DNA of 64,000 nucleotides from assembly GCF_004210375.1 (NCBI RefSeq), contig NC_134830.1, positions 3,906,001-3,970,000 of the forward strand, written 5' to 3'. Under the pieces are notes generated by a model. It searched no databases and had not been told where the DNA came from. It saw only the letters and a list, made by a program, of their open reading frames with translations. This document shows positions 360 to 61,968 of this stretch, one piece after another (within the stretch, counting starts at the first letter, position 1; each line of letters starts with the position of its first letter). The stretch is from Tachypleus tridentatus (Eukaryota; Arthropoda; Merostomata; Xiphosura; Limulidae). The translations under genes were made by a program, and so were the position numbers.

Positions 360-3353
360 GCAGTTGGAGTACTGCTTAGCTTCTATGTGATCCAGGAAAG
401 AGAAATGGCATACAGTTCAGCAGTGAATACAGAAACTGAAGAGGGGATTCTGCACACAACCATCACACCACAACAAACCATAGCAGAGCGCCTCCATTTC
501 TCTTTATATAGATGGTTCAGAAGACGTTCAGCAAATAGCAGACAGTATTTCCAATCAGGAGTGTCTGCTTTTCTCAGGTGACTTAAAGATAGGTCACATT
601 TGGGGACTGTAATAAGCCATGGTGGGATAGGCTGACCAGTAGATACAGCAATGTTATCCAAGGAGAGACCCAATTCATCCAACTGTGCCTGGATACCAAG
701 GTCAAAAGAAGTAATGGCAGATCTTCTGTTCTGAAAAGCGTAGCCCACCGAGGAAGAAAAACACAACCTTGTGGGATGCTTTGGTAAGGAATGAAGTTTT
801 GAAACATATAGTAAAGACAGTTGCAAACGACAGAGGTGCAAAGAAGGTTCATGAAACTCTATGTATAAGCTCTGAACTGGGGAGGTGCAGAAAGCCACAG
901 TGCAGAGCAAAGGTCCTTGATGATGAATGGGGTCCTGCATCTTTGGGACGAGGTCCTGGCAGAGCCATAGACCAGTGATCAATAAGATCGAATGAGAGAA
1001 CAATGTATCTTTTAGCATAGAACATTGATCTGTTCCCCAAGTGGTGGAGGAGATGACACAGAGGATGTTCAGTGCTCTTGTACATTTGACCTGTAGCTGC
1101 TTGATGTGTGGTATAAAGGTCAGCTTATGGTCAAAGATAAGCCCCAAGAACTTTCTCTTAGGGAAAATGGGTAGCACAACTTTACCAACACGGAGTTCAG
1201 AATCGGGATGAATACCCGTTGGAGGCAAAAGTGCAAACAAATGGTTTTAGAGAGAGAAGGTAAAGCCATTTGCTGTGGTCTATTTTAGTAAACAATTGAG
1301 GGCAGCCTGTAGTTCCCTCTCAATATACCTCATGTTTGACAACTGACATGAGATGTGAAAGTCGTCGACATAGAGCCCAATTGCAACAGTAAGAGGGAGT
1401 TGTTTAGTGATGGCATTAATCTTTATATTGAAAAGAGTGACACTAAAAACACAGCCATGAGGTACTCCAAGTTCCTATAAAAAAGAATGGGAAAGTGTCG
1501 AACCCACACAAACTTGGAATTGCCTGTCCATTAAAAATTTTTTTATAAAATGGGCAAATACCCACGTAACCCATATAAATGGAGGTCTCGCAAAATGCCA
1601 TACCTCCATGTTGTATCATAAGCCTCCTCAATGTCAAAGAATAGTGATACAAAATGTTGTCGTTTTAGAAAGGCTTCTCTAATGGATGTTTCCAGTTGAA
1701 TCAGGTGGTTCATGGCGGAGTGCAGTAGCAGAACCTACAATGAGTGGGCAAGAGGAGGTTGTTTCATTTGAGGAATCAAATAAGACGAGCATTAACCATC
1801 CTCTCTATGGGGTTACAGACAGCTCGTCAAAGCAATTGGATGGTAGTTTGAAGGAATCTTGGGATCCTTCCCAGACTAGGAGAAAGGTTGGACAATAGCC
1901 TGGTGCCAGGCATCAGGAAAAACATTCTCCTGCCAGATCCAGTTAAAAACAATCAGAAGAATAGTAAAAGAAGAAGGAGATAGATGACACAGAATTTCAT
2001 AGTGTACATTACTAGGTCTGACCAATGTATTGCCAGACTGATGAAAGGCCAGTTTGAGTTCCACCAGTGTAAGAGGACAATTATAGTCACAGAGACTATC
2101 AGCTCGAAAAGAAAGTAGTAATTGCTCTGCCCAAGTTTTGATGGCTGAAAAGATGGAGGATGAAGCAGAAGTGCTAGATACCTGGCAAAAGCTTTCACCT
2201 AGAGTATTGGAGATGCTCTGTGTATCAGCTAATTCTTGGCCATCAGAGTGCAAGATTGAGAGGGGCACAGAATTATATTGCCCACTGACCTTTTGAATCT
2301 TGTCCTACATGACTTTGGAGTTGGTGGTAGAAGATATGTTTGTTGTGAACTTAATCCAAGAGTCCTTCTGGCTTTGACGTATTACCCACTAAGCATGTGC
2401 AGGCATGCTGGAAAATGATGTGGTGCGAGAGTGTAGGATACCTATAAAAGGTACCCCAGGCTCATTTTTGAGTCTTTCGTGCCATGTGACAGGCAGGATT
2501 CCACCACGGATGAGGATATCATGAAAAAATGTGTCCAGGTTTTAGGAATACACTGAGCAGCTGCCTGTATAACACAATCAGTTGCTGCTGCCACACAGTC
2601 ATCTATTGATGGCTTACAGATGATGGCAGGATCAAGTTCTGCAAGAGCAGTGAAAGAGGGCTAGTTTGCTTGATCCAGCTTCCACAGGTCACGGGTCAGG
2701 TGGCACTGACCATGGCCAGTCTCTCTCAAAAGTATAGGAAAATGATCACTGCCTCATGGATTATTGTCAGCTCTCTATGAAAAGTGTGAGAATAATGAAG
2801 TAAATAATCAATAGCAGTAAAGGACTGACTAGATGCATGAAAATAAGTAGAAGAACCAGTGTTGAAAAGAGAAAGGTTGTGATCAGAGAGCATATGCTCT
2901 ACGGAGCAATCCCACCCACCAATATCAGCACTTCCCCAGAGAGGATGATGTCCATTAAAGTCCCCCAGGATTAAAAATGGAGACAGCAACTGTTCAATGA
3001 GAACATCAAAGTCTGATTGATCATAGGTCTCTCCAGACAATAGGTAGAGAACAAACAGTGATGGTACGACCCAAGGAAAGACAGATGGCTATGGCCTCCA
3101 AGGGTGTGTTGAGTTGCAAAGAAAGGGTGGGTACATGCTGATCAACCAACAGTGCCACCCCTCCATGCACTTGTTCATCACACAGCCTGTCATTTCTGTA
3201 TAAAGAAAACTGCTAAAAGGTGACTGTATTGGCAGGTTTCAGAAATGTTTCCTGTACGGAAAGACAAACAGGATAGTGGGAAGCAATCAGTGTTTTGATG
3301 ACATCCAGATTAGAACGTAAACCTCAACAGTTCCATTGTATCAAGGTGGCCAT
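360..3353 (-). pseudogene. LINE ORF2 (endonuclease, reverse transcriptase, RNase H), broken
   Basis: On the minus strand the start at 3353 reads MATLIQWNC, then an early stop. The endonuclease signature LILGDFNGHHPLWG lies at about 2990-2940, followed by MLSDHNLSLFNTGSSTYF. The RT fingers and palm are at 2268-1880 (NVHYEILCHLSPSS, IWQENVFPDAWHQAIV). The catalytic YVDD box is intact at 1372-1361. After the thumb (FLGLIFDHKLTFIPHI near 1170-1120) comes an RNase H segment, VFTAELYAISL, at about 430-400. The protein would have made and integrated cDNA of its own RNA at a nicked target. Stops near 3323 and 3216 and several frameshifts make it non-functional. Confidence 0.85.
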
Positions 3354-3364
3354 TTTTATTTACA

Positions 3365-4700
3365 TGTAGGCGAAATGGGTGGAGAACCCTTCTGTTTACA
3401 ACCACGTCTTTTTTCCTTACTGTCCTTATTTGAGGGAGGTCTACTGACCTCCATGGATCCTACCCTGTGTTGATTGGGCAGGTCTTTGTTGTTGAAAGGA
3501 GATTCCAGTGACTGAGAACGTGAATGAATGATTGTTTTGCATCTTGGGGTGGGAGAAGAAAATGTGTCTGAGGAAATACCTGTACCTGGAACCAAAGGAA
3601 GTGGATCTTTGGGTTTGTTGGAATGTATGTAAGCGACAGAGAAGGGTGTTGAAGTTCATTCATGGAGGTTAAAAGACTGTTCATTTGTTATGAGAAAGAT
3701 TCTTTTGGAGGCACAGAGATATCTGTCTGCACTTCCACTGTAGTAGTGGAATGAAGTGCAGCAGCATACATCCGAGATGAAGTGGTGGACAGCAACTTTT
3801 GAGTCTCAGGATAAGTAATGTTATGAATTGTTTTCAAACACTGGACCTCTTTACTTCAAACATTTAGGGCAAGAACGAAAGTAGGATGGGTGAGAGCCAT
3901 TGCAACTGCCGTAATGAGAGTCAATTTCACACTCATAGGCATCATGGTCCTACAACTGAAATGAGCACATGTCAAGGAACCACAACATGATGTCTTTGAG
4001 TGACCGAAACGCTAACACTGGAAACATCTGAAAGGGTTTGGAATGTATGGTTGTACCTCACAATGAAGATAATCTGTCTTGATGGTGGCAGGTGGACATG
4101 GTGATGTAAATGTCAGAATGAGAACATTGGTCGGTATCACAATTCCATCTTTGTGGGTGGAGATACACCTCACTGCAAAAACTCCTTGGGTGGAGAAACC
4201 AGGGAGAATCTCTGAATCAGGAATGTTCTTCAAATTCCTTTCAACAATAACTCCTCATGATGAATTCAAAGTAGCATGAGGCATAACCTCAATAGTATAT
4301 CCCCAATCGCCTTTGAATGCAAGAGTAATTCATTATGTTGAGATGTGGATGTTTCCACCAATATGTCACCAGAGTGAAGCATCTTTACTGACTTTGGAGA
4401 GCCAGTAAATCCTTCTAGTCCCTTCTGAATAAAAAGGGAGACATTCTGTCCTAACGGTTTGTTTGAAAGAGAATGTAGTATACAAAAATGAGGTACAGGT
4501 GTTACAGATGTTGAAGATTGCTGCTCAGAATCTTCAAGATGTGGTCATTTACCTCTGGACAGTTTCTCACTATTTTATTTAAGTTTTTATTTGGGGGATC
4601 TATAATAAAGAAAGAATTTTTCTGTGCCCACTGACCACACCAATCATGGAGCCCTGTGAGGGGATGCACTACAATGCCAAACAAGGACACTGTAGTAACG
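3365..4700 (-). pseudogene. LINE ORF1 (gag-like nucleic-acid-binding protein), broken
   Basis: The clearest part is the 3' end on the minus strand. Between about 4040 and 3850 it reads RCFQC, stop, RFGHSKTSC, then after a shift DAYEC followed by SHYGSC. These are remains of successive CCHC/CCHC-like knuckles of a LINE gag protein that binds the element RNA. Upstream, frames at 4233-4012 and about 4500-4310 carry the gag body (for example ILPGFSTQGVFAVRC). Stops and frame changes interrupt it at least four times. The first part, 5036-4737, is open for 99 codons and may be 5' leader or the start of ORF1; the true start was not fixed. Confidence 0.7.
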
Positions 4701-5189
4701 CCAGAGTTTGGTGAGCACTATACCCAAACACCGACATCAGATGCAATGTCCACAATACCCATTGAGAACATCCAACACTGATACTTGTTTGACCCTAGCC
4801 CAAGTGGACCAGCCAATTGGCCCCTGGGGGCCACCCCAAAGTTTCCTGTGTATAGGAATCCAAGGCCAAAGTGGTGTGATAGGGTTGGACCCCTCAACTA
4901 CTAGGATTCTCTCCTCCCCTTCATGGGCAACTACGCATGGCAAACATGTGGGTGGATGTTTAAATCTCAGAGGAAGTAAACTGAAAGAATATAACTTTCC
5001 ATAGGAAGCCACCTCATCACATACAGAAATCCACACGGAGGGGTATAACTGCCTGTTTTATTTAGAGATGTTTCAAAACTCCTTTACTATCTGTTATAAT
5101 TGACAACTCTTAAATCAAGAGTTATTTATATATAAAAACACTAACATCAAATATATCCTATTTAACAAACCACAAGAGTCTTAACTCAC

Positions 5190-14200: not shown

Positions 14201-17200
14201 TTTATAACACAAATATGAGGTTTTATAGACTACAGAAATATTTATAACGTGAATATGATGTTGTTAAGACTACAGAAATATTTATAACACAAATATGAGG
14301 TTGTAAAGACTAAAGACACATTTATAACACAAATATGAAGTTGTGAAGACTAAAGACACATTTATAACACAAATATGAGGTTGTAAAGACTAAATAAATA
14401 TTTATAACACAAATATGAGGTTGTAAAGACTACAGACATATTTATAACACAAATATGAGGTTTTATAGACTACAGAAATATTTATAACACAAATATGAGG
14501 TTTTATAGACTACAGAAATATTTATAACACAAATATGAGGTTGTAAAGACTACAGACATATTTATAACACAAATATGAGGTTTTATAGACTACAGAAATA
14601 TTTATAACACAAATATGAGGTTGTAAAGACTACAGAAATATTTATAACACAAATATGAGGTTTTATAGACTACAGAAATATTTATAACACAAATATGAGG
14701 TTTTAAAGACTACAGAAATATTTATAACACAAATATGAGGTTTTATAGACTACAGAAATATTTATAACACAAATATGAGGTTTTATAGACTACAGAAATA
14801 TTTATAACACAAATATGAGGTTTTAAAGACTACAGAAATATTTATAACACAAATATGAAGTTTTATAGACTACAGAAATATTTATAACACAAATATGAGG
14901 TTTTATAGACTACAGAAATATTTATAACACAAATATGAGGTTGTAAAGACTACAGAAATATTTATAACACAAATATGAGGTTGTAAAGACTACAGAAATA
15001 TTTATAACACAAATATGAGGTTGTAAAGACTACAGAAATATTTATAACGTAAATATGATGTTGTTAAGACTACAGAAATATTTATAACACAAATATGAGG
15101 TTTTAAAGACTACAGAAATATTTATAACACAAATATGAGGTTGTAAAGACTACAGAAATATTTATAACGTGAATATGATGTTGTTAAGACTACAGAAATA
15201 TTTATAACACAAATATGAAGTTTTAAAGACTACAGAAATATTTATAACACAAATATGAGGTTGTAAGACTACAGACATATTTATAACACAAATATGAGGT
15301 TTTATAGACTACAGAAATATTTATAACACAAATATGAGGTTTTATAGACTACAGAAATATTTATAACACAAATATGAGGTTGTAAAGACTACAGAAATAT
15401 TTATAACACAAATATGAGGTTTTAAAGACTACAGAAATATTTATAACACAAATATGAGGTTGTAAAGACTACAGAAATATTTATAACACAAATATGAGGT
15501 TGTAAAGACTACAGAAATATTTATAACACAAATATGAGGTTTTAAAGACTACAGAAATATTTATAACACAAATATGAGGTTGTAAAGACTACAGAAATAT
15601 TTATAACGTGAATATGATGTTGTTAAGACTACAGAAGTATTTATAACACAAATATGAAGTTTTAAAGACTACAGAAATATTTATAACACAAATATGAGGT
15701 TGTAAAGACTACAGACATATTTATAACACAAATATGAGGTTTTATAGACTACAGACATATTTATAACACAAATATGAGGTTTTATAGACTACAGACCTAT
15801 TTATAACACAAATATGAGGTTTTATAGACTACAGAAATATTTATAACATGAATATGAGATTGTAAAGACTAAAGAAATATGTATAACACAAATATGATGT
15901 TGGAAGTGAATTTCTTTAGACAATTAAGACCTGCATTCTTTAGATAGTCATGAACATTGAAAACATGTTTATTTCCACACAAAATCTCACTTTTCTGTGT
16001 TGACCTGCCAAGTGTAAAACTTTCCTGCCATCAGATGGTTTTTTTCATGATCGTAGTATGTAGCAATACTTTGGTAATCTTCTTGAGAGGCATCTTCTCC
16101 AACAACATCAACATAAATATCCATTTTACCAGTTGATTGGGCCAGCTGGAAGGCTTCTTCATGACATTTTGATAACACCAAAAACTGAATAGCTGAAGTC
16201 GTATCATTTAAACGTTGGAAGAATCTGACAATGTGGTAACATGAAATAACTTTATTTATAAATGATATAACATTCTTTGTAGAACCAAATTAACTTAAAT
16301 AAATAACAATATATTGTTTAATAAAAGACATAAAATCCATGAAGAAATGGGAGAAAAATGGTGGTAACAAATCTATTTGAGCAGCTAAGACCAATTCATG
16401 AGCTATTTTTCTCGTCAAACACCATCAACGTAAAAGCACACACTAGTCAGTGATGACGAGAAAACCCACTTGTAAAGAAAAATATGTATGTAGAAAGCGG
16501 CTGGTTTGGGTTGAGAAAATTGTTATGTAGAGGAGCAAACAACGTTTCGACCTTCTTCGATCATCGTCAGGTTCAAAAGAAGGTTTAAACATTGTTCGTT
16601 CCTCTACATAAAATTTTCTCAACCCAAACCAGCCATTTTTACATATATGAAAGCACACATTACTTGTGCTAATGTTTTCAAAACGAAACAGAAGGTACAA
16701 GTGGTCTACAGGAAACTACTCAATGTCTGAACGTACTGACTAACCCCTAGGGAATATGCCTACTGTCATTTAACAATATACTCACAATGACAGCCTCAAA
16801 GGAAATTACTTTAAAATAAAAATTGAGTAACATTCATCTTCTGTACTAAAGTATCTTGAAATTAAACATTTTTATTATCATAAAAAGCAAGTTAGATTAA
16901 AAACAGTACATATCTTCTTTGATAGACCGTTTAGGCATTCATAATGAAACTTTGCAGAATGGATGACAACTTCCTGTTGTGGAGACACAAGTATAGAGGA
17001 TGACGTTTTGAAAGTCTTCCGCCTTTCGTCTTCAAGGACTTTTCACTTGTGCAACAGGCAGTTGCTGTCCATTCTACAAAGTCTCATCAGTGCATATCTT
17101 CACCATGTGCTTCACATCTGTCAGTGAGGTAAAGGTTAGGATATGATTTCTGGGTAACTATATTTTAGCAAATCACAAAAAAACATCTACTGTCTTCTGA

Positions 17201-20200
17201 AAGATGTTGAAAACTAAAAGAATGGCAAGTTTTCAATAATATGTTTAAAAAGTTTAGTTTTCAAAAAATGAACAAATATGATTTACATTCATGCTTACAT
17301 ATTGACCATGCCTATCTTACCTGTTAAACATGCCTATCTTACATACTGACCATGCCTATCTCACATGTTAAACATGCCTATCTTACATATTGATCATGTC
17401 TATCTTACCTGTTAAACATGCCTATCTTACATATTGACCATGTCTATCTTACCTGTTAAACATGCCTATCTTACCTATAGACCATGCCTAGCTTACATAT
17501 TGACCATGCCTATCTTACCTAATGATCATGCCTATTTCACCTACTGACCAAGCCTATCTTACCTATTGACTATACCTATTTCACCTACTCGCCATGCTTA
17601 TTGACCATGCATATTTCACCTACTCACCATGCCTATCTAACTAGTGACGACACTTACCTAGCAACCATCTTTGCTCCTTCTACTGATTTTGTGTCTTTTA
17701 CAAGTCTTACAGCTTCCTCTGGTTTGTTCAAGTGCTCAAGTTGTATTCTAAAACATTAAAAATCTTATACAAATCAATGAAATATTAATACTTATCTTAA
17801 TAATTTATACAATATTTTCATTCTAAATTATCCAAAAATAACGCATTATTCAACAAATCTTATACAAATCAATGAAATATTAATACTTATCTTAATAATT
17901 TACACAAAATTTTCATTCTAAATTATCCAAAAATAACGCATTATTCAACAAATCTTATACAAATCAATGAAATATTAATACTTATCTTAATAATTTACAC
18001 AAAATTTTCATTCCAAATTATCCAAAAATAACGCATTATTCAACAAATCTTATACAAATCAATGAAATATTAATACTTATCTTAATAATTTACACAAAAT
18101 TTTCATTCCAAATTATCCAAAAATAACACATTATTCAACAAATAAAACATGATCTAATGTAAATTGCACACAGATAAAACTCATCTCTCTCCAAATGTTT
18201 TGAATATATTTTATACATGTAATGTTCACATGTATTCATTCACAATCTGTCCACCATGGGGAATTTAACCTCAGATTTTAGAATTTTAAGAAAGGTGAAC
18301 TTAATACTGACCAACTGGAAAACAAAATATGAATGCTTCATTCATCTTAATACTGACCAACTGGAAAACAAGATATGAATGCTTCATTCATCTTAATACT
18401 GACCAACTGTAAAACTGTGACATTAGTTATATACTTCCTTCAACTTAATACTGACCAACTGTAAAACTGTGACATTAGTTATATACTTCCTTCAACTTAA
18501 TACTGACCAACTATAAAACTATGACATTAGAGTTGTATACTTCCTTCAACTTAATACTGACCAACTGTAAAACTGTGACATTAATTATATACTTCCTTCA
18601 ACTTAATACTGACCAACTATAAAACTATGACATTAGAGGAATATGCTTCCTTCAACTTAATATTGACCAACTGTAAAACTATGACATTAGTTATATATCC
18701 TTCAACTTAATACTGACCAACTGTAAAGCTATGACATTAGTTATATATCCTTCAACTTAATACTGACCAACTGCGAAACTATGACATTAGTTATATATCC
18801 TTCAACTTAATACTGACCAACTGTGAAACTATGACATTAGTTATATATCCTTCAACTTAATACTGACCAAATGTGAAACTATGACATAAGAGATATATAT
18901 TTCTTTCAACCTTTACTGGACACACGTGTAAATGTTGAGAAGCATATTCTACAAGTTTTTACCTTATGACATTTTCATAATCTCTAGCATCTTCATATGC
19001 TTTTGCTGCCTCATGATATGAGCCATCAGCTTCCTTTGCCTTTGCGTACTGAGCATGGATCTTTGGGGAAACTACATTTGGCAGTAATTCTCCAACTTTG
19101 TTCCTGAAATATTCCAGTTATTTACACAGGGAACTTTGTTAAACTAGTGTGGTTTATGAAACAGAAAGCTACACCAACTCACAGGTTTCAAGTTTTTATG
19201 AAGTGATTGTTAAACAAATACTTCCATCAATGAAAAATTAATTTATATTTGGAGAATGTAACCACATAATTGGTGTAAAAAAATTGCTTATGTGCAGCAA
19301 TTACATCAGTTGAATTTCATGTAAACTAATATCCAAGTCCAAATTACAATTAAATCAATTAATCAACATTAGAAGTCCAGATTATTACTGTTTTTTGTTA
19401 TTTTAACAATGGAGTAAACTGATTGTTACAAAATATTCAGTTAATTCCATAAGATCACAGATGTATCAAAGTGCAGATGTCACTACTGTTTTACAAAGTT
19501 ACACTAAATATTCAGTTAACTCCACAGATCACAGATGTATCAAAGTGCAGATGTCACTATTGTTTTACAAAGTTACACTAAATATTCAGTTAACTCCATA
19601 AGATCACAGATGTATCAAAGTGCAGATGTCACTACTGTTTTACAAAGTTACACTAAATATTCAGTTAACTCCATAAGATCACAGATGTATCAAAGTGCAG
19701 ATGTCACTACTGTTTTACAAAGTTACACTAAATATTCAGTTAACTCCACAGATCACAGATGTATCAAAGTGCAGATGTCACTACTGTTTTACAAAGTTAC
19801 ACTAAATATTCAGTTAACTCCATAAGATCACAGATGTATCAAAGTGCAGATGTCACTACTGTTTTACAAAGTTACACTAAATATTCAGTTAACTCCATAA
19901 GATCACAGATGTGTCAAAGTGCAGATGTCACTACTGTTTTACAAAGTTACACTAAATATTCAGTTAACTCCATAAGATCACAGATGTGTCAAAGTGCAGA
20001 TGTCACTACTGTTTTACAAAGTTACACTAAATATTCAGTTAACTCCATAAGATCACAGATGTATCAAAGTGCAGATGTCACTACTGTTTTACAAAGTTAC
20101 ACTAAATATTCAGTTAACTCCACAGATCACAGATGTATCAAAGTGCAGATGTCACTACTGTTTTACAAAGTTACACTAAATATTCAGTTAACTCCATAAG

Positions 20201-28056: not shown

Positions 28057-28366
28057 CAGGTTTGATTTGAATTCTGCACAAAGCTACACGAGGGTTATCT
28101 GTAAGCAGGTTTGTTTTGATTTGAATTCTGCACAAAGCTACACGAGGGTTATCTGTACTAGCTGTCCCTGACTTAGCAGTGTATGACTAGAGGGAAGGCA
28201 GCTAGTCATCACCACCCAAGCCAACTTTAGCTACTCTTTTAACAACAAATAGTTGGATTGATCATCACCTTATAATTACCCAACAGCTGAAAGGACAAGC
28301 ATTTGAACATGCAACCCTCAGATTACAAGTCAAACAACCTAACCACCTGGCCATGCTGGGCCACAC
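28057..28366 (-). mobile_element. tRNA-derived SINE with duplicated tail
   Basis: The SINE body runs from about 28104 to the tRNA-like end GGCCATGCTGGGCC at 28349-28362. Its tail segment (TTTGAATTCTGCACAAAGCT through GAGGGTTATCTGTA) is repeated in tandem at 28060-28103, so the 3' tail is present twice. Confidence 0.85.
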
Positions 28367-42200: not shown

Positions 42201-45200
42201 TATTATTCTGGTCATGTGGCTCACTCAGACACATTATTATTCTGGTCATGTGGCTCACTCAGACACATTATTATTCTGGTCATGTGGCTCACTCAGACAT
42301 TATTATTCTGGTCATGTGGCTCACTCAGACATTATTATTCTGGTCATGTGGCTCACTCAGACATTATTATTCTGGTCATGTGGCTCACTCAGACATTATT
42401 ATTCTGGTCATGTGGCTCACTCAGACACATTATTATTCTGGTCATGTGGCTCACTCAGACACATTATTATTCTGGTCATGTGACTCACTCAGACACATTA
42501 TTATTCTGGTCATGTGACTCACTCAGACACACTATTATTCTGGTCATGTGGCTCACTGAGACACATTATTATTTTTTAAAAATTGAAAATACATCTTTTT
42601 GAGCTTCAATACTCAATTACAATAAAAACTGCTTATAATAGGACAGAATTGTCTGACTTTAAACTAGATGGAAGGAGCCACATTGCTGGTTAGCAATCTA
42701 GAACCATAAATCCTAGAATCCCCAAGACAAGTAATTTGAAAAACCTGTCCATCTTTCAGAGGGTGTCCATTATATGAAAGAACAGAAGGTATATGACTAA
42801 CACACAAATAATAGTTTGCTTCTTCAAAATGCAAATTATGCAATGTATTTATTACATTATATTATATTATATTACAAATTTAAATCATAAATATGGGAAC
42901 TTTCCAATGCTTTTGAGCTAAACAGAACCTGTCTACCAACTCAGTGCATTTACAGACTTACAATATTTATTTTCTTGCCATCAAAAACTGTTAACAGACC
43001 AACCATCCTACTAAAACCTCAGCTATAAGATTGGTTTCCATCTGAAAGTGCATATTTAAGACCCAGTAGCAATAGTCGCTCATTCAACAAACTAATTATG
43101 TTCTATGATCTAGTGTTACAAAATGTTTGTCTGCTGTGTTTCACAACTACATCGTGCTAACCTTGTCCTTGCCCGATAATCAGCTTGTGAATAAATTTTA
43201 AACTGAAGTACATCAGCAGACAACTACATTGTGCTAACCTTGTCCATGCCTGATAATCAGCTTGTGAATAAATTTTAAACTGAAGTACATCAGCAGACAA
43301 CTACATTGTGCTAACCTTGTCATTGCCTGATAATCAGCTTGTGAATAAATTTTAAACTGAAGTACATCAGCAGACAACTACATCGTGCTAACCTTGTCCA
43401 TGCCTGATAATCAGCTTGTGAATAAATTTTAAACTGAAGTACATTGTGCTAACCTTGTCAGTGCCTGATAATCAGCTTGTGAACAAATTTTAAACTGAAG
43501 TACATCAGCAGACAACTACATCGTGCTAACCTTGTCCGTGCCTGATAATCAGCTTGTGAACAAATTTTAAACTGATATACATCAAAAGAAAAAAGATAAA
43601 AACTGCCCAAGGTATAGTTTTTCTTTAATTCATACAATTGCAGATTGTTAAACTGAGTTGCACATCCTACAGTAATATGTGTAGTACAGTTCTTCTGTTG
43701 ACTCAGGTTTGGAGATTCACAAATACCAACACTTCAAATGTATACAAACACATCATTCTGATGAAGGAGTGAATTTTGTTGTTCACTGTGTTTTAATTAG
43801 TATACATAAAGCTACTTTTATTTTACACCATATTTACTACAGTCAACACAACATTCTCTGGATCATAATAAAACTGGAGACAATCATGACCTCCTTACAT
43901 GAGTGAACAGAAGCTGTTGTGACACAGGATGTCTGCATGGAGGGTTCTTACTTCAGAGAAGTCCACAAACACACACCATACAAACTAAAACTTTGAGCAC
44001 CAGAATTAATACAAACAAAACAAATCAATAAATTATTTAAATAGTTTTATGTCTTCATTACATTGTACTAAAATCTACACAATGAACATAGGAAATAATC
44101 TGGAAAATATACCAAACATACAAAACTCAATTCACAATGGTACACACACATCCTCATAAGTTATAAAATATTTTCTGTAAATGAAGAACTAAGTGAAAAG
44201 CAACTGCAGGAGACAACTTTCTCAACTGAAAACCAGGAAACACGTACTTTGTTTCATCACCCACTTAATCATAAATAAATTATATACACTGGGTGTATGT
44301 TTGACAAATAGTAAAAGAAAAGATAGTAGCTACTGGAGACCAGTGAAACTGGACATTTCTTATCAGTGGAATGCTTCAAAGGTCAGTCCTTGTACTTACA
44401 TTAATGATAATAAGATGGGGATAACCTTTGTTGAATATTCTGGTACTTAAAGATGATAAAATGTCACAGAATGACTTATATTAAGTGTTAAGTTGGACAT
44501 GTTCAATATTTGGAAGTTTTCCTTTAATTATACTGAAGTGAAAGGTTATACATTTGAGTTAGCATAGTTTGATTTGGTGTAGATGTGAATCCTTTCAATA
44601 ACGAACTACAGAAAAATGTCTTGGCAGAGTAGTGGATATGACACTCAAAGCCATTATCACCATGCTCTGTTGAACAAAACAAAGTTGAAACAGGTAGCAA
44701 CTGTCTTGTTCAGAGTGTAGTGAAACTTTAGAGGAAAGACTTGAAATAACCTGATAAAGTAGCTCCAGTGAGTACAAAGTTTCAAAACACTTCAGGTCAC
44801 CAATCTCCACTGTTAATATTACAGTTAGTATAACTTTACAATATATTTATTAATATACTGATTGCAAGTGAAAGAAGCCAGTTATCTCCATTAAAGTTAC
44901 AAGTCACAACTTGTAAAAATGCATCTCAGAATAGCTGGTATGGGTATTTACACATATTGAAAGAAGCCAGTTATCTCCATTCAAATTACAAGTCACAACT
45001 TGTAAAAATGCATCTCAGAATTACTTGTATGGGTATTTACACTTATTGAAAGAAACCAGTTATCTCCATTCAAATTACAAGTCACAACCTGTAAAAATGT
45101 ATCTCAGAATGGCTTGTATGGGTATTTACACTTCTTGAAAGAAGCCAGTTATCTCCATTCAAATTACAAGTCACAACTTGTAAAAATGCATCTCAGAATA

Positions 45201-46990
45201 GCTGGTATGGGTATTTACACTTATTGAAAGAAGCCAGTTATCTCCATTAAAGTTGCAAGTCACAACTTGTAAAAATGCATCTCAGAATAGCTGGTATGGG
45301 TATTTACACTTATTGAAAGAAACCAGTTATCTCCATTCAAATTACAAGTCACAACTTGTAAAAATGCATCTCAGAATAACTTGTATGGGTATTTACACTT
45401 ATTGAAAGAAACCAGTTATCTCCATTCAAATTACAAGTCACAACTTGTAAAAATGCATCTCAGAATAGCTGGTATGGGTATTTACACTTATTGAAAGAAG
45501 ACAGTTATCTCCATTCAAATTACAAGTCACAACTTGTAAAAATGCATCTCAGAATAGCTGGTATGGGTATTTACACTTATTGAAAGAAGCCAGTTATCTC
45601 CATTCAAATTACAAGTCACAACTTGTAAAATGCATCTCAGAATAGCTGGTATGGGTATTTACACATATTGAAAGAAGCCAGTTATCTCCATTCAAATTAC
45701 AAGTCACAACTTGTAAAAATGCATCTCAGAATAGCTGGTATGGGTATTTACACTTATTGAAAGAAGCCAGTTATCTCCATTCAAATTACAAGTCACAACT
45801 TGTAAAAATGCATCTCAGAATAGCTGGTATGGGTATTTACACTTATTGAAAGAAGCCAGTTATCTCCATTAAAGTTGCAAGTCACAACTTGTAAAAATGC
45901 ATCTCAGAATGACTTGTATGGGTATTTACACTTATTGAAAGAAGCCAGTTATCTCCATTCAAATTACAAGTCACAACTTGTAAAAATGCATCTCAGAATA
46001 GCTGGTATGGGTATTTACACTTATTGAAAGAAGCCAGTTATCTCCATTAAAGTTGCAAGTCACAACTTGTAAAATGCATCTCAGAATGACTTGTATGGGT
46101 ATTTACACTTATTGAAAGAAGCCAGTTATCTCCATTCAAATTACAAGTCACAACTTGTAAAAATGTATCTCAGAATAGCTGAAATGGGTATTAACACTTT
46201 TACTGATAAGCAGAGAACAACGTTTCCACCTTATGAATAAAAGTATTAATACCCACACAAGCCGTTCTGAGATACATTTTACTTTCAAGTGGGTTTCTCA
46301 TCATCAAGAAGTCACAACTTGCTAGGATTACCCAGTTGTGGTTTTACCTTAGACAGTACACTGGTTTACCAGTAAGGGTTCACAGGATGGCTGCTGGGAA
46401 GGTTATGATCTTTTAATTTTTATTAGGAAAATAAAAGGATGAGGTGATCTTATGAAGTTTGAGATATTATGAAGTAAATATGAAGGATAAAGGTCTTTGA
46501 TTCTACTGTGTGGTATTCAGAACACAAGATAACACTGTCTTATGAAATGAGTTAGAAATAGTCAATTTTGGAGGACAATATTATATAAGTGTTTAAGACT
46601 CGAACTAATGACTTCCTGGAAAATTAAATTTGGGTTTAAATTTTGTACTTTTCTTGAGGTTCAGGGTTGACAAACAAAACAAACCTTGTGGAACCAAATG
46701 TTCGGTTTATAGGCATGAAACTTACATCTGTCAAGCTAGATATATGAAACAGAACCTTTTAATCTTAAGAGTTCTCAAAGTTTGCACAAAAATGACATTT
46801 AGTGGAGTAATAGATTCTTTAAGTAAAAAACACATGATTAATTAGAGCTTGCTTAATATTAAAAGATCACAGTACACCAAACATAAAGGTACTAACCTTT
46901 AGTTCTAAGATCTGAGAGGGAATGTGCTACAACTGCTTTCCTTGTTTCTCTATTACAGCTCCATACTTTGTATGGAAGCTGTCTCAGTTC
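32917..46990 (-). CDS. CIDE-N domain protein, Drep-2/Drep-3-like (three exons, 5' end missing)
   Basis: Exons in order are 46990-46897, 39130-38957 and 33278-32917 (stop at 32919-32917), all with AG/GT borders and matching phases. The 209 residues visible begin with a CIDE-N domain: LPYKVWSCNRETRKAVVAHS, then DLRTKGGEKLG, LRVVLENDGTEVEDENYF and DTVFILLRPGERWFPP. After it comes IPQIVCEAINSLEL and PSWKIMDNKGHITVVLRW, a block I associate with arthropod Drep-2/-3. A basic, proline-rich tail ends in VEDWL. CIDE-N domains pair with each other and control the DFF40/CAD apoptotic nuclease; fly Drep-2 is neuronal and synaptic. No nuclease domain is present. The starting methionine lies in an unfound upstream exon. 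The CIDE call is firm, the subfamily less so. Confidence 0.9.
33300..33494. other. Intronic spacer
   Basis: Short intron segment before the 35-bp array; nothing recognised. Confidence 0.4.
33500..35278. repeat. 35-bp minisatellite, about 50 copies
   Basis: The unit CGTATACACATGGACAGTAA then CAGTAATTAGTAACT is mostly exact. One- or two-base insertions at the unit junction (CTTCG, CCTCG, CTCAG) and CACATGG to CATATGG changes mark subgroups. It sits in the second intron of the Drep-like gene. Short minus-strand frames (77 codons) are by-products. Confidence 0.97.
35279..37040. other. Intronic spacer
   Basis: AT-rich intron of the Drep-like gene. Open frames at 35678-35923 (minus) and 36736-36921 (plus) lack motifs or splice support. 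Confidence 0.5.
37055..37195. repeat. About 67-bp tandem duplication
   Basis: TAGTAATGTGTTGTCCAACC through CATCAAGTGGTGAACCCC occurs twice in direct order, with a few differences. Confidence 0.9.
37265..37510. repeat. 23-bp minisatellite, about 10 copies
   Basis: GATAAGTTGGTTAACCATAC then TGC recurs. The last copies decay to GTAAGTTAGTTAATCATAAT. Each unit holds the palindrome GGTTAACC. Confidence 0.9.
37511..38330. other. Intronic spacer
   Basis: AT-rich intron sequence with a short ATTA run at 38025-38044. Nothing else recognised. Confidence 0.5.
38335..38522 (-). mobile_element. Decayed SINE relic
   Basis: AGAGGGAAGACAAGCAAGCT, CTCTTGAGCTGCCTTTTGCT and CCCACAGCTGAAAGGGTGAG match the middle of the main SINE in order. 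The tail and most of the tRNA-like head are lost or highly diverged. Confidence 0.75.
38957..39130 (-). CDS. Drep-like gene, middle exon (most of CIDE-N)
   Basis: This exon of 174 bp has acceptor TTTGTAG and donor G|GTAACG. It codes for 57 whole residues: GEKLGYSTPSKLRVVLENDG, TEVEDENYFKTVDKDTVFIL and LRPGERWFPPSMETLRA. The acidic DGTEVEDE strand is typical of one interaction face of CIDE-N domains. The 34-bp minisatellite begins only about 15 bp upstream of its acceptor. Confidence 0.94.
39145..42572. repeat. 34-bp minisatellite, about 100 copies, open in all three plus frames
   Basis: The unit is GTGGCTCACTCAGACACATT then ATTATTCTGGTCAT, with a 32-bp form lacking CA and point variants (TTACTCTGG, CAGGCAC, TTATACTGG). 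No plus frame contains a stop and 34 is one more than a multiple of three. The array therefore reads as three overlapping frames of about 1,090-1,130 codons that cycle through the same peptides. No initiation context, domain or splice signals support expression. It lies in the first visible intron of the Drep-like gene. Confidence 0.97.
42573..43130. other. Intronic spacer
   Basis: AT-rich sequence with an ATTAT run at 42857-42881. Nothing else recognised. Confidence 0.5.
43135..43585. repeat. 77-bp minisatellite, about 5.8 copies
   Basis: ACAACTACATCGTGCTAACC, CTGATAATCAGCTTGTGAAT and AAATTTTAAACTGAAGTACA recur in 77-bp steps (43143, 43220). One copy near 43440 lacks the CAGCAGACAACTACAT link. 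Confidence 0.94.
43586..44855. other. Intronic spacer
   Basis: No exon or known repeat recognised. Open frames of 65-85 codons here look random. Confidence 0.5.
44860..46190. repeat. 89-bp minisatellite, about 15 copies, related to the adjacent hairpin element
   Basis: The unit is TTGAAAGAAGCCAGTTATCT, CCATTCAAATTACAAGTCAC, AACTTGTAAAAATGCATCTC, AGAATAGCTGGTATGGGTAT, TTACACTTA. The part GTAAAAATGCATCTCAGAAT through GGGTATTTACACTTA matches the left arm of the inverted-repeat element that follows at 46160-46310. Confidence 0.95.
46160..46310 (-). mobile_element. Small inverted-repeat element, third copy
   Basis: The left arm ATGTATCTCAGAATAGCTGA..GGGTATTAACACTTTTA faces its inverse TAAAAGTATTAATACCCACA..CGTTCTGAGATACAT at 46239-46278. 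The centre holds AGAACAACGTTTCCACCTTA, an altered form of the AACAACGTTTCGACCTTCTT seen at 16539-16558. The right flank AAGTGGGTTTCTCATCATCA matches, inverted, the left flank of the 16440 element, so both belong to one family. Confidence 0.72.
46311..46896. other. Intronic spacer
   Basis: No recognised exon or repeat. The 71-codon plus-strand frame at 46630-46845 has no features. Confidence 0.5.
46897..46990 (-). CDS. Drep-like gene, first visible exon (start of CIDE-N)
   Basis: This exon of 94 bp has a strong polypyrimidine tract and CCAG acceptor and ends K, G|GTTAGT. It codes for ELRQLPYKVWSCNRETRKAV then VAHSLSDLRTK, the first strands and helix of CIDE-N with the usual basic RETRKAVVA stretch. 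Confidence 0.92.
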
Positions 46991-47264: not shown

Positions 47265-48505
47265 TAAAAACTTAAGAGTGAAAAAGGCCAATGACCTTAA
47301 AAAGTTTAAATCACAACTGAGGTGGACAGTGTTGCCATCACCAATGACACTGTCCAATGTCAAGAGTGAATCCATGGTAAAAATATGTCTAAAAGGGTAT
47401 TGTCACTCATTGTTGTAACAATGGCACAACAGTAAAATGTGGGTTATTGTGACTTGAGTGTTGCACATGTACTGCATAGCTTCTATGTGATCCAGGGCAA
47501 GAGAAATGGCATACAGTTCAACAGTGAATACAGAAACTGAAGAGGGGATTCTGTGTGCAGCCACTGAACCAAATCTAACCATGGCAGATCCCACAGTCAC
47601 CTGATTTTGAAACGTATATAAATAGAAACTGAAGGATGGTTCAAAAGATGTTTGGCAATTTGAAGACAGTACTTCCAATTGGGAGTATCTGCTGTCTTCA
47701 GATGACTCAAAGAAAGGTCACACATGGACATGGTAATAAGCCATGGTGAGATGGACTGACCAATGAATTCAGCAATGTTATCGAATGACAGACCCAACTC
47801 ATCTAACTGCGCCTGGATACGAAGTCCCACTGAGGAAGGAAAACACAACTCCAGATGGGATGCTGTGGTAAGGATAAATGTTTGGAAGCATACAGTAATG
47901 ACAGCTGCAAATGGCAGAAGTATAGAGGATGTTCGTAAGACTCAGTGTATAAACTTGGACTGGAAAGGTGTAGAAGGCTACTGATGGTGAATAGGGTCTA
48001 ACATTTTCAAGGCAAAGGTCCTGGCAGGGCCATAGGTCAGAGATCCATAATCTAGGTTTGATCAAATGAAGGCACAATAGATTTTTAGTATAGAACATCG
48101 ATCCACTACCCAAGAGATGAAAGAGAGGCACAGGGAATGTTCAGTGCCCTTAAACACCTGACACATAACTACTTGATGTGTGAAATAAAGGTCAGCTCAT
48201 GGTCAAAAATAAGCTCCAAGAACTTTACCTCAGGGCCCATGGGAAGCACAACTTCTCCAAGACTAAGCTGTAGGTAGCAGAAGTGCATGCAAACAGTTTT
48301 AGTGTGAGAAAAGGTAAAACAATTTGCTGTGGTCCACTTTAGTAAACAGCTGAAGGCAGTCTGTAGCTACCATTCAATAAATCTCAAGCCACTGATGGCA
48401 TTAATCTTTATAATGAAAAGTTTGATGCTCAAGACAGCCCTAAGGGAAAGAACGGGAAGTGTCGAACCCACACGGACTTGGAATTGTCGGTTCACTTACA
48501 GTTCC
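47265..48505 (-). mobile_element. LINE fragment, second copy of the 355-5040 family
   Basis: The minus strand matches 355-1520 in order: the RNase H segment VFTVELYAISLALDHI (about 47550-47480), the linker and the RT thumb. It extends further 3' than the first copy, giving the end of RNase H. Relative to the first copy an internal stretch of roughly 75 bp around the catalytic YVDD box is missing (near 48385). Stops break the frame. It lies upstream of the first visible Drep-like exon. Confidence 0.87.
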
Positions 48506-51703: not shown

Positions 51704-51975
51704 TTGTTTGTTTTTGTTTTGTTTTTGAATTTCACACAAAGTTACACGAGGGCTATCGGCACTAGCCATCCCTAGTTTAGCAGTGTAAGACTAGAGGGAA
51801 GGCAGCTAGTCATCACCACCCACTGCCAACTCTTTTACCAACAAATAGTGGGACTGACCATCACATTAAGACCCCTCACAGGTGAAAAGGCAAGCATGTT
51901 TGGTGCAACAAGGATTTGAACCTGTGACCCTCACATTACAAGTTAAGCACTCTAGCTACCTGGTCATGCCGGGTC
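51704..51975 (-). mobile_element. tRNA-derived SINE
   Basis: Full-length type. On the minus strand it starts with the tRNA-like head (GACCCGGCATGACCAGGTAG), has the B-box GGTTCAAATCC, then the body and the tail ending in GT-rich sequence (TTTGTTTG on the plus strand). RNA polymerase III would transcribe such elements, and a LINE would copy them. Confidence 0.92.
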
Positions 51976-53150: not shown

Positions 53151-53413
53151 CTTGTTTGTTTGTTTGTTTTTGAATTTCGCGCAAAGCTACACGAGGGCTA
53201 TCTGCGCTAGCCATCTCTAATTTAAAAGTGTAAGACTAGAGGGAAGACAACTAGTCATCACCACCTACCGCCAACTATTTGACTACTCTTTTATCAACGA
53301 ATTGATTGACCGTAACATTATAACGTACCCACGGCTGAAAGGGTGCGACGGGGATGCGAACCCGCTACCCTCAGATTACGAGTCTCACGCTTTAACATAC
53401 TTGGCCATGCCGG
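53151..53413 (-). mobile_element. tRNA-derived SINE
   Basis: Well-preserved copy. Plus-strand landmarks are GCGCAAAGCTACACGAGGGC at the tail side and GGCCATGCCGG at the head side; the B-box on the minus strand is GGTTCGCATCC. Confidence 0.93.
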
Positions 53414-54708: not shown

Positions 54709-54984
54709 ATGGTTTGGTTTATTTTGAAATTCGCGTAAAGTTACACGAGGGCTATCTACGCTAGCCGCCCCTAATTTAGCAGTGTAAGATTAGAGGGAAG
54801 ACAGCTAGTTATCACCACCCACCACCAACTCTTGGAATAGTCTTTTATCAACAAATAGTTGGATTGACTGTCACATTATAACGCTTCCACAGCTGAAAGG
54901 GCGAGCGTGTTTGATGTGACGGGGATCCAAACTCGCGACCCTCGGATTATGTATGAGTCGAGTGTCTTAACTATACGGCCATGT
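54709..54984 (-). mobile_element. tRNA-derived SINE
   Basis: Body well preserved (GAGGGCTATCTACGCTAGCC, ACTCTTGGAATAGTCTTTTA). The head side has a 4-base insertion (TATG) and ends at CGGCCATGTGAG, so the terminal GGCC is altered. Confidence 0.9.
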
Positions 54985-56798
54985 GAGCATCTATGCAGTT
55001 AAATTAAATACTGGCATAATATCTTCTATAAATTCTCTCCTCTTATAAATCTTGAAAGGGGATAGAGGCATGGTGGATAAAACATTTTAGTTATTTTAAA
55101 CAAAGTTTTTTTACATTTATACTTAACACTAAATATATTTTATTTTAATTCGAGGGAAATGTCAGATCATAGACATTGTTATCAGGTATAACAATTTCTA
55201 ATTTTGAACTGTTGACGAGAAGAAAAACAAACAGCCATCAGTATTTACCATTACGAGGATGTTGTTGGATCCTCTGAACCAAATAACAGGCTTGACTGCC
55301 ATTTTATTTTAAAATGCCCACACCTAAATATGTGGAACTTGTTCAAAGTATCACATTTCAAACCCAGGACACTTTGATCCGCAGCCCAACACACTAACCT
55401 TAGTCCATTCTCTACTCGGTTTACAAATATTCACATTTCCACATATACGTTGAAAAACAATAGATAATATTCTATTTCCATGTTTATAGTTTTAATATAT
55501 GACTCTTCTTCTGTTCAAATGACAACAGATTAATTCTTCCGTTTAATTAAACACATTCCAAATAATCACTACAGTGATACTGAGTACAATAATCAGCACC
55601 CAGAAGGGTTTGTTTTGCTTGAGAATCTACATGTGCCTATAACAGGCCACAAGGTCTTCGTTTATCTGCTGTTATTTTTCTCGGCATACACATTTTGCCT
55701 CTGGTGATGTGGCATTGAAACGAACAGTAAATGGTATCTATTTTAGTAAAGTTCGACTAATAAAATTCACGCCAACAAATATGACAAAGCTCCATCTAAA
55801 TCAATCAATCATTGGCATCGTCACCTGGTTAAAGAAAATGAACAAATATGAATTAGTAAGAAGATTCATATTTGGGAAAACGTTTTTGTTTTGGAGTCTG
55901 CCATCCTAAAAAAAAAAAAAAAAAACAACCAATGGTAGTCAGTGAAGAGTCTGCAAGTTAGAGAATTGGTTAAATTTGGCATTATTATGGATAAAAAGAG
56001 ACCTAAAGTTGGTATAATGACTGAACTTGAAAGAACTTTATTCATCGATAGTTAAAGTGTAGAAGAATAATTTGAAAAATCAGAACAAATCAGGTGTCAA
56101 ACAATACACATGACAAGTAAGCATCAAGAATACCCTAGTAATCTACTTGTTTAACTAATATGATGTAACAAATTATAGTTTTGGAGTACGTGGCAGTAAC
56201 CAATCACATGAAGCCAATGACAAACAAACCTTAAAGCACAATGGAAGAAGATCAAAGTTCGAACAACAGAATAGGAAGTAAAATAAGGTTCTAAAGTACT
56301 TGCCCTTTGTATTCATAAAGTATAAATGAACAATAAGTATAGAGTAAATGAAACTATTAAATCTCAGATGGACAATTCCCAGTTAGTAATCTTGAGATGA
56401 TCCGGATAACATTTCTATTTCAAGACTATTTTTTTCTCAAGACTATTTGCACACTGAAAGAAAAAAATGTCCACCAGCAGAAAACAAGGAGTCAGAACGG
56501 AGAGGAGTTAGACTGGCATGATTTGAGAGATTGCCTGGTGTAGATATTATTAATTAGTTTATTTTGTGGAAGAATATTTTATGATTGTTCAGATTTTTAT
56601 TATAAGAGAGTTAAAAGAAGATTATTATTGGGAAATGCGTTTGTAGCTCATTGATGTCGAGAATGTAGCGAGCGAGCAGACGATTTAGTAATAGACGTAT
56701 AAATAGTATGATGTGAGGATAAACACCAGAAAGACAAAGGTAATTACTAATACTGAGTAAAGTGATGATTATAAAAAAAGTTAGGCCTAATTACTCTA
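54985..56798. other. Spacer without recognised content
   Basis: AT-rich sequence with an A-run at 55909-55924. The plus frame at 55709-55909 has no motif. Confidence 0.5.
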
Positions 56799-57036
56799 CA
56801 GGGTGGCCCGTAAGTCCCTACCCATCCATATGTTATTATGTTATATTCAATTACGCATGCATTATAAATTTGTTTCTTTTTTTTTCAGAGAAATATGGCC
56901 GATGTATGCCCATTTACACTTGAAGGCGTATTGTGACAAGTATGTGGCTACATGAACGCAAGAATACTGGTGACACCACACAGATATACTGGATACATAA
57001 GATATATGGATGGTTAGGGACTTACGGGCCACCCTG
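56799..57036. mobile_element. Mariner-type MITE, 238 bp, TA target duplication
   Basis: Terminal inverted repeats of 33 bp with a single mismatch start CAGGGTGGCCCGTAAGTCCC and continue TACCCATCCATAT. TA flanks both ends (56797-56798, 57037-57038). The inside has no coding frame. The near-identical arms suggest recent activity. Confidence 0.95.
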
Positions 57037-57038
57037 TA

Positions 57039-57324
57039 GAAGTGATAAGCCCAATGATTAGCATAGGCCTAACATTTAATATGCTAGAGGAAAACTAACA
57101 GTTTTAAAAGAGACAAGAAGTGTTGTTTAATCTGTCAAAGCATGGTTCTAAATTAACCAAATCAGCCTAAGTGCACTCTGACAAAACGAACAGAGGATTC
57201 TTTGAAGAAAGAAGACAAAACTATTATTGGAAGAGCTGTATACAGTTGGGGTAAGTCGCAGCACATTGAGTGAATTAAACACCAATACTAACTGATATTT
57301 TAAAGTAACTGCATAGGCCTAAAT
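57039..57324. other. Spacer
   Basis: Nothing recognised. Confidence 0.4.
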
Positions 57325-57595
57325 GGTTTGTTTGTTTTTGGAATTTCGCACAAAGCTACTCGAGGGCTATCTGTGCTAGCCGTCCCTAATTTAGCAGTGT
57401 AAGACTAGAGGGAAGGCAGATAGTCATCACCACCAACTCTTGGGCTACTCTTTTACCAACGAATAGTGGGATTGACCGTCACATTATAACTCCCCCACGG
57501 CTAGGAGGGCGAGCATGTTTGGCGCGAGTCGGGCGCGAACCCGCGACCCTCAGATTACGAAACGCACGCTTTAACGCGCTAGGCCATGCCGGGCC
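57325..57595 (-). mobile_element. tRNA-derived SINE (best-preserved copy)
   Basis: From TTTGTTTGTTTTTGGAATTT to AGGCCATGCCGGGCC. On the minus strand: GGCCCGGCATGGCCTAGCGC (A-box side), then GGGTTCGCGCCC (B-box). This copy comes closest to what I take as the family consensus. Confidence 0.94.
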
Positions 57596-57936: not shown

Positions 57937-58151
57937 TTCAGCATGGTTAGGTGGTTAGGGTACTTGACTCATTTTTATCTGAGGGTCGTGAGTTCGAATC
58001 CATATTCAGTTAAACATACTCGCTCTTTTAGCTATGGGAGTGTTATAATGTTACGGTCAATACATTATTCGTTGGTAAAACAGTAACGAAAGAATTGGCT
58101 GTTGGTGGTTGAGACTATCTGCTTTCCAATAGTTTTCACTACTAAATTAGG
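57937..58151 (+). mobile_element. tRNA-derived SINE, opposite orientation, 3'-truncated
   Basis: The tRNA-like head is on the plus strand (AGCATGGTTAGGTGGTTAGG, B-box GTTCGAATCC), followed by the body to CACTACTAAATTAGGG, where the next SINE starts. It is the only clear copy in this orientation. Confidence 0.9.
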
Positions 58152-58403
58152 GTTTGTTTTTAATTTCGCGCAAAGCTACACTAGGGCTATCTGCGTTAGT
58201 CGTCCCTAATTTAGCATAGTAAGACTAGAGGGAAGGCAGCTAGTCATCACCGCCCACTCTTTTACCAATGAATAGTGGGAGTATCCATCCCATTATAACG
58301 CCCCCACAGCTGAAGGGTCGGGCATATTTGGTGTGACTGGGATTTGAACTCGCGACCCTCAAATTACAAGTAGAACGCCCTAACCACCTGGTCATGCCGG
58401 GCC
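58152..58403 (-). mobile_element. tRNA-derived SINE, tail-to-tail with the previous one
   Basis: From GTTTGTTTTTAATTTCGCGC to GTCATGCCGGGCC. It abuts the preceding SINE without spacer, so the pair forms an inverted repeat of about 215 bp per arm. Confidence 0.92.
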
Positions 58404-60940: not shown

Positions 60941-60944
60941 AACG

Positions 60945-61735: not shown

Positions 61736-61808
61736 TTCATAATTTCACATAAGATGACCTGAGTAATGTTGGTTTAGAAAAACGGTCGAGAGATGGCGAT
61801 ATAACAAT

Positions 61809-61968
61809 TTAAACTATACCACTGTCAATCAAAGATATTAAACAAACAAATAAAGATACAGTTAAGTTAACATGAACAGTGTGAGCAGAAGCAGGTATTT
61901 CTTCGTTCATTTCCCACTCGTAGTCTCCACAATAACCATTCAGAATAGGTTGGGTAGGAATGCCCCTT
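61809..61968 (-). CDS. Beta-hexosaminidase, last exon
   Basis: Acceptor CTACACAG at 61970-61969; 52 whole codons and a stop at 61811-61809. The first base completes the arginine of MLR. NGYC is about 40 residues before the end, and a 19-residue hydrophobic stretch closes the protein. Confidence 0.92.

Follow-up and report, generated by a model that had tools for sequence, protein, structure and literature searches.

Penelope-like elements (PLEs) canonically combine a reverse transcriptase (RT) with a GIY-YIG endonuclease (PMC11167929). In bdelloid PLEs, the pseudo-LTRs (pLTRs) are described as inverted and placed head to head, with a 31-bp tail on one of them and a target-site duplication (TSD) (PMC3846280). 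For the Anolis element Poseidon/PAc, the published account places the hammerhead cut 26 nt and the RT start 111-118 nt into the open reading frame (ORF), explains a tail of 30-40 bp by a second RT start, and has both target strands cut and extended, with the later steps of PLE insertion awaiting experimental validation (PMC11167929). Hammerheads lacking helix III have been reported in PLEs (PMC6155905, PMC7761336). Moreover, metazoan non-LTR retrozymes are presented as small, non-coding elements that bear hammerheads, have TSDs of more than 4 bp and are presumed to be mobilised by PLEs (PMC7229834).

In this context, we analysed 64,000 nt of the Tachypleus tridentatus genome (C6:3906001-3970000, hereafter the window) and searched the 2.17-Gb host genome for relatives of three hairpins found there, H1 (16433-16662), H2 (16904-17101) and H3 (46145-46321). 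We consider it likely, with a probability of about 0.77 for the best explanation as a whole, two-strand mechanism included, that the three are ORF-less PLE insertions, each composed of two 3'-terminal units joined head to head. This kind of insertion is already known; its orderly one-tail pattern and fresh junctions make the insertion mechanism countable. By title, searches of one open-access collection listed no paper on these elements.

H1, H2 and H3 have one build in common: a TSD of 13-14 nt enclosing two inverted copies (the arms) of a unit of 95-130 nt, with a tail of 26-38 nt on just one of the arms and a central hammerhead-like core. Bdelloid Pen2a-type PLEs are likewise described with inverted terminal units, a tail of about 31 bp on one of them and a short TSD (PMC3846280, PMC8969392). 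Unlike the bdelloid PLEs with inverted pLTRs in those reports, H1-H3 hold no ORF between the units, and the insert measures only about 150-205 bp; neither an RT nor a GIY-YIG domain was found in the three hairpins themselves. Furthermore, the TSD is about 13 nt here versus 8-10 nt in the bdelloid elements, and the copies here run to thousands. The resemblance to retrozymes extends to small size, lack of coding sequence, the hammerhead and TSDs longer than 4 bp, whereas retrozymes are reported as direct tandem repeats with canonical hammerheads (PMC7229834); the units here are inverted pairs with a minimal hammerhead that lacks helix III.

In H1, the left TSD copy (16433-16445, AAAGCACACACTA) is identical at 12/13 positions to the right one (16650-16662, AAAGCACACATTA). 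Between them lie a one-sided tail of 38 nt (16446-16483, minus strand), with a similar tail beside H3, the long arm to which the tail is attached (16484-16576, minus strand) and a short, tailless arm (16577-16649, plus strand), which is the second unit copy in inverted orientation. The long arm is a terminal unit with the minimal hammerhead and, together with the tail, covers unit positions 2-127. The inverted match of H1 to itself extends over 16484-16648 (81% over 168 columns, E 9e-33), longer than the arms that a first-pass annotation had given it. H2 is bracketed by copies at 16904-16917 and 17088-17101 (13/14 identical), and comprises a 26-nt tail (16918-16943, minus strand), a long arm (16944-17036, minus strand) and a short, tailless arm (17037-17087, plus strand) whose inner end is not sharply defined; its arms at 16944-16979 and 17052-17087 are 83% alike. 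In H3, detected as a hairpin at 46160-46280 beside an 89-bp minisatellite, the TSD copies are identical (46145-46157, AAGTCACAACTTG, at the end of the 89-bp array, and 46309-46321), and the tailless arm (46158-46232, minus strand) carries a half core, GGAAACGTTGTT, followed by the tail arm (46233-46280, plus strand), shortened at its inner end, and a tail of 28 nt (46281-46308, plus strand).

H1 and H3 have arm, core and outer box in common (80.6% over 62 columns), and the 11-mer RAAACGTYRTY occurs three times in the window, once at the centre of each hairpin, against a mean of 0.34 in 100 shuffles, none of which contained three. On unit coordinates, where H3 was placed via its half core, the outer ends of H1, H2 and H3 lie at +119, +112 and +111 and the inner ends at +82, +86 and +85. 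The tailed ends are 95 (H1), 84 (H2) and about 87 nt (H3), and the tailless ends 58, 58 and 61 nt, past the predicted hammerhead cut. The 89-bp minisatellite (44869-46199) has a unit that includes target flank, the H3 TSD and about the first 40 nt of the tailless arm; it matches the H3 border region (46145-46308) at 95-96% over 87-100 nt, and the array was apparently seeded where the H3 insertion meets its flank.

First-look searches of the host genome gave 3505 (H1), 2904 (H2) and 3059 (H3) candidates. From 40 scored candidates per family, 39, 38 and 20 further places were retrieved, and 94 copies were analysed (39, 34 and 21, the window's own included), after omission of six duplicates (L011, a copy of the WDR19 locus, L055, L072, L077, L088 and L089). 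A flank comparison of the retrieved copies, excluding those of the window, confirmed five of the six and revealed no others. Since the 94 copies were taken among the best-scoring matches to a hairpin query, they over-represent neat hairpins; in addition, as the H2 and H3 queries included a single tail, they favour tailed over tail-free copies, with no bias against two tails. Near-identical pairs were also present: H1 and H2 together recur at 98-99% about 200 kb upstream in inverted orientation (C6:3722242-3722837), a 99% copy of H3 with unchanged orientation lies about 111 kb upstream (C6:3840850-3841000), and several other loci are paired at 97-99.9%. These are either recent segmental duplications or unmerged haplotypes in the assembly.

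Because a direct repeat brackets each of them (16433-16445/16650-16662, 16904-16917/17088-17101 and 46145-46157/46309-46321), H1, H2 and H3 are read as insertions; the first-pass annotation had missed both the flanking TSDs and the third hairpin. Among 2000 random places outside tandem arrays, equally good repeats were seen at 4 for H1 (scored on its exact 10-nt core only), 1 for H2 and 0 for H3; an initial null drawn from anywhere in the window was spoiled by minisatellites and was replaced. In the genome copies, flanking direct repeats with a score of at least 8 were present in 74 of the 90 tailed copies of the three families (H1 28/35, H2 30/34, H3 16/21) versus 3-4% for mismatched flanks taken from different copies (50/1190, 42/1122 and 13/420, respectively). 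Their median length was 13 nt (H1), 12 nt (H2) and 13.5 nt (H3).

The affiliation with PLEs comes from the element body. A genome search for GIY-YIG (PF01541) returned 4 places, one of which is linked to the unit. At this locus (L093, within L116), the frames for GIY-YIG (2.4e-6) and RVT_1 (4.1e-11) are mutually offset, and an H1 unit follows about 117 bp after the frames, with 90.6% identity over positions 1-95. As the unit ends this RT/GIY-YIG element, we take it to be the terminal pLTR of a PLE, which agrees with the Penelope-like link that the first-pass annotation had hinted at. The body of L116 is degraded, its RT and endonuclease frames being offset fragments with no intact PLE ORF, and all NCBIfam matches to its RT fell far below the cut-off. 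The linked body pertains to the H1 family only; at a second locus, L118, a frame upstream of the unit resembles the L116 endonuclease by eye. In the window itself, a Pfam scan of 20 of the 96 listed frames revealed no PLE domain. T-rich filler at the junctions turned out to be partly native, as L116 has ACCTCTTT just before the unit. Of the other PLE traits, the inverted pLTR with a single tail and the TSD are seen in the copies, and a probable RT start at a fixed distance past the hammerhead in H1-H3.

A regular trait of the copies is the single tail. With a tail called present at half or more of the probe's full score, exactly one arm was tailed in 90/94 copies (H1 35/39, H2 34/34, H3 21/21), 4 H1 copies had no tail, and none had two. 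A second count by arm alignment in the H1 and H2 families gave one tail in 70/73, none in 2 and two in 1; all the exceptions belong to H1 (36/39 with one tail, versus 34/34 in H2), and the only two-tail call, L035, is doubtful. The tailless end has a median unit position of 95 in both families, and the tailed end lies at 116-129, mostly 129 (H1), or 125-127 (H2), where the reference units stop. The inner ends are less uniform: the start of the longer arm lies at unit 1-7 (H1 family) or 1-5 (H2 family), and the short arm ends anywhere within unit 10-34 (H1) or 1-58 (H2). The tailed arm is the longer one in 14/39 H1 and 24/34 H2 copies, and a probe-based count of 40 H1-family copies placed the core beside the tail in 12 and opposite to it in 25, with no tail in 3. 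In the H2 family (L052-L089), 24/34 short arms stop at unit 32-40, at or next to the predicted cut (35/36), and look as if the template had been cleaved; only 2/39 short arms of the H1 family stop within three nt of it.

We also sampled copies by a word rather than by hairpin shape. The exact 24-mer GAAGGTCGAAACGTTGTTCGCTCC, taken from the H1 unit, has 3,351 genomic occurrences (1697 + 1654), and its reversed control has 0; the first 30 places on contig C1 reduced to 19 independent loci after grouping by flank matches. An inverted second unit was present within the 3-kb locus in 12/19, either close by (L121, L123, L125/126, L127, L128, L129/130, L131-133, L137, L140) or 0.7-1.25 kb away (L117/118, L119, L141/142), and the other 7 had a single unit only (L120, L122/124, L134/135, L136, L138/139, L143/145, L144/146). 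All 12 inverted loci had one tailed and one tailless unit; L140 is the weakest case, because its shorter arm, ending at 108, falls between the two end classes, and L119 has an additional partial unit at the locus edge. The spacer between the inverted units ranges from 0 to about 1,250 nt. Judged by matches to the body that precedes the unit in other copies, this spacer consisted of element body in head-to-head order in 6/6 loci tested: 253 nt antisense then 88 nt sense (L128), 57 nt antisense then about 27 nt sense (L129), 134 nt antisense only (L127), about 34 nt antisense then 1.2 kb sense (L117), 605 nt antisense then about 70 nt sense (L119), and sense only (L141). Since the spacers are element body in varying amounts, hairpins and longer copies form one series.

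Both ends of each insert look like RT start sites, one inner and one outer: by subtraction of the published positions, the outer RT start of PAc lies 85-92 nt past its cut (PMC11167929), versus about 84-95 nt here. As here, PAc is described with a minimal hammerhead near the unit start, a second start that gives a 30-40 bp tail, optional in PAc, and both strands cut and extended (PMC11167929). Given the single tail and the body spacers, the insert looks like two unequal cDNAs started at two sites. The element enzyme would open both target strands; one 3' end would prime cDNA at the inner start, about 58-61 nt past the predicted cut, and the other at the outer start, some 84-95 nt beyond the cut. 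These cDNAs would then travel unequal distances along the template before being joined head to head, and a hairpin would result where both stopped near the hammerhead. If the hairpin arises in this way from two short cDNAs, its inverted repeat is a by-product of insertion and not a selected RNA stem, and the inverted-repeat arms of such elements should not be read as selected stems.

The ends, tails, TSDs, variable junctions and body lengths are direct observations, and this strict scar pattern suggests that copying of the element into the target started simultaneously from the two cut DNA strands. As worded, the mechanism is incomplete, since an independent choice of start sites does not explain the strictness of the single tail. 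We lean, by a narrow preference, towards a Penelope insertion that is obligatorily asymmetric, in which an inner and an outer RT start are each used on a different target strand and the unequal cDNAs are joined. If this holds, a short pair would yield a palindromic insert with exactly one tail, and a long pair the familiar element with an inverted pLTR; the tail would not be optional but would mark one half of a complex whose two halves are not equivalent; and this genome would hold thousands of natural records of the reaction. Since thousands of inserts keep both ends, the TSD and the junction, the insertion model is testable by counting.

An alternative is self-priming, in which a single cDNA, or else an antisense template, is copied after folding back on itself, so that priming at the target occurs once. 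Such a step has been proposed for palindromic junctions of bdelloid Penelope elements (PMC3846280), and unequal arms enclosing a loop of body could be the remains of a fold-back loop. The likeness of the arms within a copy would also fit: their identity is 0.920 within versus 0.893 between copies in one family and 0.917 versus 0.899 in the other, values reached in 0/2000 permutations in each. Nevertheless, self-priming predicts the same start at both ends, with either two tailed or two tailless arms, whereas one of each was found in 90/94 hairpin copies and 12/12 loci of the 24-mer sample, and the tailless end is constant at a median unit position of 95 in the H1 and H2 families. We regard self-priming as unlikely. 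Under the two-strand reading, one kind of template seems to have been copied into both arms of an insert, hence their likeness.

It is very improbable that a master hairpin, i.e., a non-autonomous fold-back retroelement, was transcribed whole and copied by a Penelope enzyme. The thousands of first-look candidates, many of them full-length matches, would suit such a source, but junction, spacer and the choice of the longer arm vary within one family, the spacers are element body of varying length, and the arms covary within copies.

The hammerhead itself has to be considered apart from the hairpin. The first-pass annotation had described two inverted repeats with minus-strand words of the CTGANGA and GAAAC types at their centres, and both hairpins and both words are indeed there. 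A descriptor scan located a minimal type I hammerhead motif in H1 at 16535-16576 (minus strand), conserved in relatives, in the order stem I, CUGACGA, an extra U, stem II GAUC/GGUC, GAAAC, GUU and stem I, with CTGACGA ... GAAACGTT at 16541-16570 and the predicted cut between 16541 and 16540. This was the only match in the window, with none in 200 dinucleotide shuffles, although the descriptor was written after the sequence had been seen and gave 0 matches with no extra nucleotide allowed. In H1, the core is kept together with a 5-bp stem I and a 4-bp stem II, with G-U pairs. The core of H2 (17002-17036, minus strand) reads CTTGAAGA, stem II GAAAG/CTTTC, AAAACGTC; it is decayed, as the first-pass annotation had suspected, with C3 changed and stem I absent, and neither H2 nor H3, with its half core, fits the minimal type I pattern. 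There is precedent in a viroid hammerhead for an additional nucleotide following the CUGA box.

Conservation across genomic copies, which we retrieved and aligned, was partial. In the H1 family, CTGANGA...GAAACGTH is kept in 23/39 copies, and the core plus stem I of at least 5 bp and a 4-bp stem II in 18/39. The commonest letters of 37 cores read GTGAACCTGACGATGACCGAAGAAGGTCGAAACGTTGTTCGC, and the family consensus is stem I GUGAAC/GUUCGC, CUGACGA, an extra U, stem II GACC/GGUC, GAAAC and GUU, with no helix III. In the H2 family, a loose core pattern is matched by 13/34 copies, of which 11 read UUGAAGA, and 10 of the fitting cores have the full 5-bp stem II GAAAG/CUUUC. The minimal type I hammerheads reported from PLEs and Terminons agree in having CUGANGA, stem II and GAAAC directly before GUH, without helix III; they differ from the present ones, which have an extra U or C between CUGANGA and stem II and, in the fitting H2-family copies, mostly U for C3 (PMC6155905, PMC7761336). 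That stem II is unlike in sequence between the families yet paired in each hints at structure, and the motif is putatively identified by how far the copies conserve it and by the RT and endonuclease frames linked to the unit. In PAc, the start codon is said to overlap the hammerhead (PMC11167929); likening the H1 ATG to it as evidence of coding was rejected, because the frame opened by that ATG ends after 13 codons in the common form of H1, and H2 has ACG.

Other scans were less favourable to a hammerhead. Rfam at the curated cut-off gave 0 hammerheads in the whole window, and at E<=10 none in 16300-17250 or 16525-16600; an intact relative, L015, matched only Hammerhead_HH9, with 12.8 bits (E 0.71) against a cut-off of 52. 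A canonical three-helix scan requiring a stem III of at least 2 bp returned 0 matches; a match at the base of H2 (17090), with a stem III of 1 bp, was dismissed as weak and accidental, and a looser setting, which returned 14 rows spread across the window, including H1 and H2, was left unused. Among viral contigs, an 18-mer scan gave 0 matches and a gapped-pattern scan 2, both without stems and unlike the element by eye, which were discarded. The stems of the H1 family showed no covariation: in 37 of the 39 cores (L016 and L017 left out for indels) there were 0 compensatory changes in 350 cells, 91.7% of which were paired, and the covariation score was no higher than in shuffles (225 of 500).

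Both H1 and H2, 241 nt apart, lie in an intron of WDR19, as the first-pass annotation had it; an exon frame (15987-16289, minus strand) matches the WDR19 chain 8fgw_C (E 1.6e-22). That they act there as self-cleaving ribozymes, the possibility that annotation had raised, is highly improbable. The motif is on the gene's strand, and H1 keeps its core and both stems. Against this, helix III is absent, only one sense copy with an intact core exists locally, H2 has a decayed core that lacks stem I, and neither the Rfam scans nor the stems across copies gave support. By the refuting condition that the annotation itself had set, absence of both a covariance-model hit and covariation, self-cleavage stays unproven. 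Furthermore, the plain hairpin of the H1 RNA, at -94.1 kcal/mol, is more stable by 21.6 than the hammerhead-constrained fold (-72.5), and by this model the hairpin fold hides the motif; moreover, the PAc hammerhead without its protein is reported to have shown no cleavage (PMC11167929). The local hammerhead copies are most likely inert. The long arms are two copies of the element's end and not a ribozyme stem; the two hairpins, held at first to be unrelated, are insertions of the same type, and their origin is thus not unrelated. H1 and H2 are old transposon scars in the intron, with no ground for a function seen.

Two further readings carry next to no weight. A fold-back DNA transposon or MITE, moved by transposase cut-and-paste, would account for inverted repeats with short flanking duplications, but not for duplications that vary around 13 nt (8-16), asymmetric ends with one tail, or a unit that is the end of an RT/GIY-YIG element. 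As for a microRNA precursor, MIR2630 is the best Rfam match to H1 (72.1 bits, E 4.4e-14), yet this score is half of the family cut-off of 144, and the place is matched by seven Rfam families, six of them microRNAs, on either strand, as any long inverted repeat would be.

The window is rich in other repeats. An inverted pair at 60800-61100 (minus) and 61560-61850 (plus), with a repeat of 167 columns 78% alike, has no hammerhead. A dispersed repeat (28166-28358, 51770-51969, 53217-53341, 54769-54971, 57384-57555 and 57941-58397, the last an inverted pair) has the look of a tRNA-derived SINE, but ARAGORN found no tRNA. Frames at 383-5057 and 47403-48140 (both minus) resemble a decayed non-LTR retrotransposon, with an endonuclease-reverse transcriptase domain (PF14529, 2.4e-9) at 2726-3088. 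Minisatellites are very dense over 5327-64000 (41 overlapping rows, units of 15-224 bp, several with more than 50 copies). Finally, 56795-57040, with terminal inverted repeats of 47 bp that are 91% alike and about 154 bp apart, is perhaps a small DNA transposon.
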